Of a DNA stretch of 24,601 nt, positions 1-2,221 are shown in pieces. Source of the DNA: a virus; IMG/VR virus record IMGVR_UViG_3300028571_000112, positions 1-24,601 of that record; one strand, written 5' to 3'. Each line of letters begins with the position of its first letter. Positions within the stretch are counted from its first letter, which is position 1. Made by a program: the position numbers and the translations under genes. The notes under the pieces are model-generated. The model was not told the DNA's origin. It did no database searches and was given only the letters and a program-made list of their open reading frames with translations.

Positions 1-893
1 CATGCGGTTGCTGCGCAGAGGGGGACTTGTCCATTTCCAATGGCTTTAAGTCTGTCATTCCTAGCGGCCACCCCATTAGCCACTCTACCCACATCGGGTT
101 CAACTGCCCACCAATCAATTCGGGATTGTCTGTGGCTATCGTGCCACCCAACATAACTTGTAGGCTTTTTGTCCTGTGCCGAACTACTGCGTTCTTCGCA
201 TCGTTGGATTGAGGTGTCGGAAACTTTGCCGCAAATGATTGAAGTGTCCTCCCCGATTGAGATTTGGCTTGTGGGTTGTAATCTTTCGTTAGGCCTCTTT
301 GACTCGCATCGGGTGTTGGCAATAATCTTTTTCTTAGCGCTTTTCTGCTGTTGCTGCCCCCGTCCAACCCTGTTGTGCAAGGTGTGTGAAAAAATGTTTC
401 GTTGTTTGGCGACAATCCAGATTCTGTCCCTCTGATGGTTTGCGCCAACGTCAGCTGCTCCCAGCACTCCCCATCTCGCATCAAACCCCATTGCGGCCAA
501 GTCTCCAAGAACTCGTCCAAGTCCCCTAGAAGTGAGCATTGGTGAGTTTTCCACGAACACGAATCTGGATTGTACTTCACAAATGATCCTCGCCATTTCT
601 CCCCACATTCCTGATCGTTCTCCATCAATCCCTGCGCCTCGTCCTGCGGCTGAGATGTCTTGGCATGGAAATCCTCCAGATATAACGTCAACAATTCCTC
701 TCCAAGGTCTTCCGTCAAAGGTTTGAACGTCATCCCAAATCGGGAAAGGCGGGAGAAGCCCGTCATTTTGTCTGGCGCACAGTACGCTTGCGGGGTATTG
801 CTCCCACTCGACTGCGCAGACTGTTCGCCATCCGAGAAGTTTTCCCCCAAGTATTCCTCCACCAGCGCCCGCGAATAAAGCCAACTCATTCAT
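1..893 (-). CDS. DNA cytosine-5 methyltransferase (orphan phage Dcm type), C-terminus cut by window edge
   Basis: Transfers a methyl group from S-adenosylmethionine to C5 of cytosine in DNA, probably protecting phage DNA from host restriction. Reading the minus strand from ATG 893 gives 297 uninterrupted codons. Motif I is ELALFAGAGGGILGG (residues 3-17), the catalytic motif IV is GGFPCQ (73-78, nucleophile Cys77), motif VI is ENSP (115-118) and motif VIII is QRDRIW (154-159). The C-terminal part has the LLPTPDAS and GQLNPMWVEWLMGWP stretches seen in compact phage and metagenomic Dcm proteins; classical motifs IX and X are not obvious. The start overlaps the previous gene's stop as ATGA, with GGGAG just upstream. 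No restriction endonuclease is next to it in the window. The stop codon lies beyond position 1, but the last motif seen suggests only a short tail is missing. The family call is secure; the recognition sequence cannot be read from this. Confidence 0.93.
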   Translation of the reverse strand, partial: MNELALFAGAGGGILGGKLLGWRTVCAVEWEQYPASVLCARQNDGLLPPFPIWDDVQTFDGRPWRGIVDVISGGFPCQDISAAGRGAGIDGERSGMWGEMARIICEVQSRFVFVENSPMLTSRGLGRVLGDLAAMGFDARWGVLGAADVGANHQRDRIWIVAKQRNIFSHTLHNRVGRGQQQQKSAKKKIIANTRCESKRPNERLQPTSQISIGEDTSIICGKVSDTSIQRCEERSSSAQDKKPTSYVGWHDSHRQSRIDWWAVEPDVGRVANGVAARNDRLKAIGNGQVPLCAATA

Positions 894-1291
894 TTTCTCC
901 CACCATATTGTTTTCTAAGTTCTGCCAATTTAGCCAGGGCTTCAGCTTTAACTCTGTCGCTTTCAATCTGCTCATGAATAGTCATCTTGCGCTCGATCAA
1001 GACGGTTTCTACAGGTTTGACAGGAATCCTTGGGCCTTGATTGCATAAATTTCTGAATTTAATGGCGCTTGGCACAAAGTCATCATTTAAATGCAATATT
1101 GCAAAGTCCATGCTTGGCCTGTAAGTCAAGAATCTTCCCAACTGGTTTGCCCACTCTTGGCGAATCAACTCATGGTCAACGCCTTCCCAATGCCTAAGAA
1201 ATGCCGCACCATAAATTGCACTCATGCGCCCAAAAATGTAGTCCAAACCTTGTTCTGTTTCGCAAAAATCAGTTTCCGAGTAATTTGACAT
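890..1291 (-). CDS. Putative replication protein, lambda P-like (helicase loader candidate)
   Basis: A 133-residue protein directly downstream of the O-like initiator. The region LDYIFGRMSAIYGAAFLRHW (about 16-35) followed by an ExxxVxW-like helix and SAIKFRNLCNQ (about 78-88) resembles the small C-terminal domain found in lambda P-type replication proteins of many proteobacterial phages. Members of that family recruit or load the host DnaB helicase at the phage origin. The C-terminus (about 98-130) is rich in E, K, R and A and is probably helical. I chose ATG 1291 because GGAGGG lies 8-9 bases upstream; a GTG at 1315 in the same frame has no better signal. It overlaps the preceding gene by 23 bases and the methyltransferase start by 4. 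The helicase-loader role is inferred from family resemblance and context. Confidence 0.6.
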   Translation of the reverse strand: MSNYSETDFCETEQGLDYIFGRMSAIYGAAFLRHWEGVDHELIRQEWANQLGRFLTYRPSMDFAILHLNDDFVPSAIKFRNLCNQGPRIPVKPVETVLIERKMTIHEQIESDRVKAEALAKLAELRKQYGGRK

Positions 1292-1940
1292 TGCTCTGCC
1301 CTCCAAGTAAGCCACGGGTTAAACCTGACAAAACATTAGCGTTGCGCTGACCAGTTTTGCTTAGATTTCGTTCATCAGGTTTAAGCCATTCAGCTTGTAA
1401 ACCTTGTGACCCTCTAGCGCACCAAACACTCAGGAAGTCGCTGAACGCCATGTTTGCTTTAGCGGCTTCTTTTCGTGCGCTGTTTACCACGGTTTCTGTA
1501 ACGGGGGCTTTCTTGGCTTTGCGTAACTGTTTCCAATCGTCCCAAATTTGCTGATCAACATCTTGAGGGCAAGCAACGATAGTTGCTATCTCTCTCTTTG
1601 TCTCTTTCTTTGTCTCTGTCTCTGTCTCTCTCTCTGGTCTATCACTTTGATATTGCTCTGATATCGCATTGATATCGTCGTGTTCCAACCAATGAGACAA
1701 CTTGATAATGATTTCTTTTGTTTTCAGTTCTGTCAATCTAAGACGAAAAGCAAGAGTTTTGTTGTCAGGAATGCGCCCATCGTTCTCGCTGGCTATCAAC
1801 CAAAGCATGACTAGCACTTTGGCGGCTAATGGGTCTAATTCATGCCATTCAAGGTCATCAAGAATGTCACGATACAGCTTTACCCAAGGAGGCCGCCTAT
1901 CCTTAAAGTGCTGAAACTTTGTCCAATTTTTAATTCTCAT
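1269..1940 (-). CDS. Phage replication initiator, lambda O-like organisation
   Basis: A 223-residue protein, first of the replication pair. Residues 1-85 (starting MRIKNWTKFQHFKDRRPPW) look like the winged-helix N-terminal domain of phage replication proteins; KTLAFRLRLTELKTKEIIIK (61-80) is a plausible recognition region. Residues about 101-118 are a charged E/T/K/R linker. Residues about 128-190 (QIWDDWKQLRKAKKAPVTET, then a CARGSQGLQAEWL segment) match the C-terminal domain common in DnaT-like and O-like phage primosome proteins. Such proteins bind the origin and recruit a helicase loader. The gene itself carries three 11-bp repeats and a pyrimidine tract between the two domain-coding parts. 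The start is the only good ATG before the conserved N-terminus; no strong Shine-Dalgarno is visible, and a hairpin with T8 lies just upstream, so translation or transcription may be controlled. Identity as a replication protein is well supported, exact family less so. Confidence 0.72.
   Translation of the reverse strand: MRIKNWTKFQHFKDRRPPWVKLYRDILDDLEWHELDPLAAKVLVMLWLIASENDGRIPDNKTLAFRLRLTELKTKEIIIKLSHWLEHDDINAISEQYQSDRPERETETETKKETKREIATIVACPQDVDQQIWDDWKQLRKAKKAPVTETVVNSARKEAAKANMAFSDFLSVWCARGSQGLQAEWLKPDERNLSKTGQRNANVLSGLTRGLLGGQSNVKLLGN
1589..1636. repeat. Pyrimidine-rich TCTCTG/TCTTTG tract
   Basis: About 48 bases of almost pure C/T with scattered G on the plus strand, built of imperfect TCTCTG and TTTGTCTC units. 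In the O-like gene it encodes the charged linker RETETETKKETKREI (about residues 104-118). Strong strand asymmetry next to the iteron-like repeats could make it an easily distorted or unwound element of an origin; alternatively it is just a simple-sequence linker. Confidence 0.6.
1646..1678. repeat. Three 11-bp direct repeats (iteron-like), candidate phage origin core
   Basis: TTTGATATTGC, TCTGATATCGC and ATTGATATCGT follow one another without spacing; the shared core TGATAT begins at 1648, 1659 and 1670, exactly 11 bases apart. Eleven is not a multiple of three, so the repetition is not one of protein sequence (the encoded residues 88-98 are DDINAISEQYQ). It lies between the DNA-binding and C-terminal coding parts of the O-like gene, the same place as the lambda origin iterons. 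A pyrimidine-rich tract follows at 1589-1636. Confidence 0.55.
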
Positions 1941-2065: not shown

Positions 2066-2221
2066 TTACTCTAAAAACCAATCAGGACGCAACAACTTTA
2101 ATTGCCAAATTCTTGCTTGTGGAACAGTTTTCCATTGAGAAATAGCTGCTTGGCTAATGCCCAATAATTTGCCTAGCTCACTCTGTGAGCCTGCTAGTGC
2201 AATAAATTTATTTTTGTCCAT
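2066..2221 (-). CDS. Cro-like HTH transcriptional repressor, 51 residues
   Basis: Minus-strand frame from ATG 2221 to TAA 2068-2066. The sequence begins MDKNKFIALAGSQSELGKLL and continues GISQAAISQW, then ends with RPDWFLE. SQSELGKLLGISQAAISQWK (13-32) is a clear helix-turn-helix of the Cro/YdaS type, with the usual glycine at the turn and Ser-Gln-Trp at the end of the recognition helix. It is the first gene of the leftward early transcript and is divergent from the recombination operon, the classical place of Cro. It probably binds the palindrome at 2234-2249 and represses its own promoter. No Shine-Dalgarno is seen; a TATAAT box 7 bases before the ATG suggests a leaderless or nearly leaderless mRNA. 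The repressor call is strong; its exact partner sites are inferred. Confidence 0.85.
   Translation of the reverse strand: MDKNKFIALAGSQSELGKLLGISQAAISQWKTVPQARIWQLKLLRPDWFLE

Follow-up and report, generated by a model that had tools for sequence, protein, structure and literature searches.

Our analysis of a complete viral contig (24,601 nucleotides, 24.6 kb; hereafter the window) indicates that positions 1572-1676 very probably form a replication origin that lies inside the gene of its own initiator and would work as that of phage lambda does. Both the origin activity and the binding of the repeats by the initiator's N-terminal domain (NTD) are predicted from sequence, namely from constraint on the array at the DNA level, its specificity for one NTD type, the co-divergence of the two, and a conserved layout. 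The features concerned are collected in Table 1.

Table 1. Features of the initiator region in window coordinates.
Feature	Position	Strand	Basis or remark
P-like helicase-loader gene	890..1315	-	PHROG 109, E 3.4e-4 (weak); 47-nt overlap with initiator 3' end
O-like replication initiator gene, 223 aa (NTD type A, linker, C-terminal domain)	1269..1940	-	ORF and PHROG matches
C-terminal domain coding region, PHROG 678-like	1272..1571	-	Common to genes with unrelated NTDs
Dyad AGCAAC-N4-GTTGCT, tract/C-domain junction	1572..1587		Compensatory changes in homologues
Strand-biased purine tract, (GAGACA)n on coding strand, C/T-rich on plus strand	1589..1636	-	TRF; codes RERETETETKKETKRE linker; candidate opening/assembly region
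Degenerate iteron 4 / half site, GATAGACCAGA	1633..1643	-	GAT kept in 15/15 at +33 from iteron 1
Iteron 3, AATATCAAAGT	1644..1654	-	Read (G)A TAT CAA = Y-Q; GATATC in most homologues
Iteron 2, GATATCAGAGC	1655..1665	-	Read (G)ATA TCA = I-S
Iteron 1, GATATCAATGC	1666..1676	-	Read GAT ATC = D-I; conserved in homologues
N-terminal putative DNA-binding domain, type A (KNWxKFQHFKDRRPPW), codons 1-84	1689..1940	-	Alignments; helical in model; weak HTH-type fold matches
Cro-like repressor gene, upstream of initiator	2066..2221	-	Pfam P22_Cro, E 3.3e-10

The initiator matches PHROG 26426 with its NTD (E = 5.5e-14) and PHROG 678, "replication initiation O-like", with its C-terminal domain (residues 92-199, E = 1.3e-13). 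The gene order cro-O-P is lambdoid, a P-like gene is kept behind the PHROG 678-like C-domain in 101 of the genes examined, and genes for a Sak annealing protein and a YqaJ/RecE-type exonuclease lie farther out in the window. AlphaFold models of moderate confidence display a helical NTD and a helical C-terminal domain; confidence is low in the linker, which corresponds to the tract and the end of the array. Fold searches with the full and NTD models gave HTH-like matches, none of them significant, and a PDB sequence search returned chance matches only. The lambda O N-terminal family (Phage_rep_O) gave no Pfam match to the NTD at E ≤ 1 and no NCBIfam match at E ≤ 0.1. After the P-like gene, the minus strand at 3-893 holds a truncated gene that by eye resembles a C-5 cytosine DNA methyltransferase; the annotation of MW202462.1 places a cytosine methyltransferase after the initiator.

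The initial annotation had reported three 11-bp TGATAT repeats starting at 1648, 1659 and 1670, exactly 11 bp apart, between the DNA-binding and C-terminal coding parts of the gene, and all of this is present in the window sequence. On the coding (minus) strand the order is GATATCAATGC GATATCAGAGC AATATCAAAGT GATAGACCAGA, the last being a degenerate fourth unit absent from the earlier list; a purine tract resembling (GAGACA)n comes next. The cores are GATATC-like with an exact 11-bp pitch. The 48-base C/T-rich tract described with the repeats occupies 1589-1636, preceding them on the plus strand and following them on the coding strand. The array corresponds to codons 89-97 of the 223-residue initiator, between the two predicted helical domains, and its cores span all three reading frames (Table 1). 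With up to three mismatches, the triple pattern has three matches in the window, which are one array seen in three registers, versus 0.05 expected from dinucleotide shuffles; 0 of 100 such shuffles reach three, so that the repeats exceed chance expectation. GATATC itself occurs at two sites in the 24.6-kb window, against six expected, and both are within the array.

The array is under DNA-level constraint. We fetched 80 viral loci by protein similarity, blind to the repeats, and the array of GATATC cores at 11-bp pitch (GATATC/11) was present in 42/42 pattern-independent genes that encode a type A NTD; a repeat-free homologue with the same NTD, the case that the initial annotation had named as contrary to its proposal, was looked for and not found. 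It had also proposed asking whether homologues keep the repeats at synonymous sites, and they do so strongly, as judged from fixed codons and from protein-preserving shuffles. Among 16 genes below 93% identity, whose codon counts are not independent of each other because the sequences are related, the first Ile codon is ATC in 15/15 (gene background 0.23), the second Ile is ATA in 16/16 (0.21), Ser is TCA in 16/16 (0.25), Tyr is TAT in 16/16, and Gln is CAA in 15/15. The usual Ile codon, ATT (0.57), is used at neither array position. Glu in the tract is GAG in 62/62 cases versus 0.24 elsewhere in the genes, and the Leu and His codons adjoining the array vary freely in the same genes. Protein-preserving codon shuffles gave p = 0.0024 for lag-11 self-match in the window gene alone, and p ≤ 0.025 in 13/14 type A and 6/6 type B genes (type B is described below).

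Frame rotation, the unbiased scans and a second core sequence do not depend on these codon counts. Three loci (L096, L187 and L203) keep the type A domain and carry the array in another reading frame, resulting in a different peptide, and in L118 the array is doubled to six units. All three genomic GATATC sites of Xanthomonas phage PBR31, and both of those in Limnohabitans phage DC33, fall in the array. The 39-kb DC33 record (PQ492659.1) encodes a lysis peptidase and has genes resembling those of podovirus-type relatives; its Inoviridae label looks like a taxonomy error.

Among the scanned phage contigs, the GATATC/11 array is specific to initiator NTD type A. Searching 2.9 million IMG/VR contigs for three GATATC cores spaced 11 bp apart yielded at least 120 matches, and 102 of the 120 arrays among the matches listed adjoin this NTD. 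Changing the pitch abolished the association: the same pattern was found in 14 contigs at 10 bp and in 19 contigs at 12 bp, beside NTD type A in 0/14 and 0/19, respectively. The other 18 listed arrays occur mostly in unrelated contexts, one of them (L146) in an initiator truncated at its 5' end. Two arrays (L124, 1200-1255, five units; L160, 200-227) accompany initiator-like proteins whose NTDs lack type A similarity, possibly through convergence or cassette transfer. In L132 (540-567) and L169 (1449-1476), GATATC/11 is positioned directly upstream of, not inside, an HTH replication-initiator-like gene.

A different NTD comes with a different core sequence at an unchanged pitch and position. 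A second NTD, type B (QHYKDR), is homologous to type A (about 36-39% identical) and is accompanied by [GC/GT]TAGC, GCTAGC, GCNNGC and GCTATC cores at the same pitch and position, with the same tract after them. When GCTAGC/11 was used for the scan, 118/120 among the matches listed adjoined a type B domain and 0/120 a type A domain; in the remaining two no NTD could be detected in the available DNA. In the pattern-independent sets, 81/84 type B genes carry the array by the strict pattern, and the other three have variants of it. GCTAGC-like units spaced by 11 bp were also seen in more distant relatives, from Iodobacter, cyanobacterial and Manatee Spring phages.

Initiators with a DUF1376 (PF07120) NTD, which is unrelated to that of the present gene, share its C-domain and P-like loader and likewise have linker repeats of non-triplet length, in their case 7-bp AACCANN units. 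Among the matches listed from an AACCANN scan, 115/120 fall within DUF1376-type ORFs, and of the five remaining ones most seem to be truncated; a 7-bp array, either AACCANN or ACACANN, is present in 29/29 DUF1376-type genes of the pattern-independent sets. The second heptamer type, ACACANN, was seen in the linkers of six initiators with the same C-domain (L044, L054, L055, L056, L062 and L065), and GATACA hexamers were present in L039 and L060. Identical C-terminal domains were found behind several of NTD types A, B and DUF1376, which argues that NTD and repeats travel as one cassette. We consider it likely that phage initiators mix and match in this way, each NTD family having its own linker array and the two being swapped jointly onto shared C-domains. 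The pairs would, with similar likelihood, be type A with GATATC/11, type B with GCTAGC/11, and DUF1376 with AACCANN/7.

The purine tract is present with NTD A in 41/42 genes and with NTD B in 84/84. It is purine-biased with about 44% GC, and thus is not an AT-rich unwinding region. The dyad at its junction with the C-domain is largely set by the peptide A-T-x-V-A. Coordinated changes in homologues nevertheless preserve it, albeit in small counts (ACAAC/GTTGT, TCAAC/GTTGA and GCCAC/GTGGC), and in the xPEGV class of C-domain the third positions covary in a purely synonymous manner (ACG with GGC, and ACA or GCA with GGT; again small counts).

Iterons, tract, dyad, C-domain and loader gene together are the layout that a lambda-like origin needs. 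In the mechanism we propose, the NTD would bind the 11-bp array and, since the GATATC cores are one helical turn apart, the initiators would be placed on one DNA face. The initiator would assemble there, the adjoining strand-biased tract may be opened or may serve in loading, and the P-like helicase loader, encoded directly downstream, would be recruited by the C-terminal domain, leading to origin firing. Since a single gene holds the iterons next to the binding domain, the two would be inherited, and swapped, as one specificity cassette.

The lambda origin in gene O and the origins of Stx phages (PMC7466680) likewise have in-gene iterons between DNA-binding and C-terminal parts, and share with the present array a strand-biased tract alongside, a helicase-loader gene downstream and lambdoid gene order. 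Four or six tandem iterons occur in lambda/Stx origins (PMC7466680) and in the present family, and extra iterons lengthen the protein, by 13 aa in Stx (PMC7466680) and by 11 aa in L118. In contrast to the longer lambda iterons (PMC7466680), those described here have palindromic hexamer cores at a one-turn pitch of 11 bp and, unlike lambda's, read through all three frames. The proposal of a lambda-type origin within the initiator was therefore borne out in its in-gene iterons between domains, their conservation at the DNA level and the P-like gene downstream, but not in two other respects: the tract is not AT-rich, whereas lambda's is, and the NTD belongs to another family. For these two reasons we do not file the system under the lambda O family. 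On our best reading of the sequences, what would be new relative to the lambda origin is the different NTD family and the one-turn iterons. In Francisella phage KIRK (PMC7924643), repeats in a replication gene have been proposed as a putative lambda-like origin, as here; that case concerns a single phage with another gene and other repeats, and the portion of the report available to us describes no comparative test. We found no equivalent in literature searches on 11-bp or GATATC iterons or on a replication-initiator role for DUF1376.

In hundreds of uncultivated phages, these results give the position of a very probable replication origin together with the domain expected to bind it, and GATATC versus GCTAGC offers matched homologous domains with different cores, from which recognition rules may be derived. 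If initiators do mix and match, DUF1376 (PF07120) gains a predicted function and a predicted DNA site, and origins become readable directly from uncultivated phage genomes. The array is also a clear example of a single DNA segment that is subject to two codes simultaneously, its period running through all three reading frames.

The initial annotation expected GC skew to switch near the array; of three complete relatives, two do not show this. The cumulative minimum lies near the array in PBR31 only (302 versus 1471) and about 8 kb from it in the two others; in the window and the three relatives, skew follows gene direction. The skew, the tract that is not AT-rich and the probable bacterial operators described below lower our confidence in an origin more than in iterons acting at the DNA level.

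It is improbable that the array is instead a transcriptional operator, serving autoregulation of the O-P operon or as a site for a ribbon-helix-helix (RHH) repressor. Identical GATATC/11 triplets do exist in bacteria just upstream of SPFH genes with an adjoining RHH gene, and of RHH antitoxin genes, so the motif alone is not diagnostic. The present array, however, sits 260 bp into a coding region, always within the initiator linker and not upstream of an RHH-linked gene; its core varies with the type of initiator NTD rather than with any repressor; and no RHH match was found among the early-region window proteins scanned. Iteron arrays can also serve in handcuffing or partition. That the array serves copy-number control, incompatibility or partition and that initiation takes place elsewhere is a marginally less probable reading than an operator: in two viral contigs a related GATATC/11 array occurs just upstream of the start of a ParA-like gene (L102, 8972-8999; L176, 11420-11447), but the array in the window is coupled to tract, dyad and P-like gene, as an origin would be, and among the window genes examined none was recognised as a par gene. 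Protein constraint or slippage in a low-complexity linker (ETETET) is the least probable reading, since, although the array amino acids are conserved too, neither 11 bp nor 7 bp is a multiple of three (an argument the initial annotation had already made from the period), two Ile sites have different fixed codons, frame-rotated arrays preserve DNA and alter protein, and protein-preserving shuffles reject it; we rejected a protein repeat on this codon and frame evidence.

A scan of bacterial genomes for the array returned mostly probable operators of SPFH/RHH genes or chance matches, not initiators. In many bacterial phyla, SPFH/Band_7 genes are closely preceded by three GATATC at 11 bp (L210, 2407-3500; L256, L204, L208, L209, L213, L214, L245, L248, L262, L265 and others), with a 63-aa ribbon-helix-helix gene coming next in L210 and L256. 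The SPFH-linked array probably acts as an operator through which a widespread SPFH-RHH operon is autoregulated. By eye, arrays of the GATATC/11 type are also found upstream of FitA/VapB-like ribbon-helix-helix antitoxin genes (L220, L261, L287 and L215). A short ORF of Aeromonas tecta (L211, 4586-4745) contains over a dozen GATATC cores spaced 11 bp apart.
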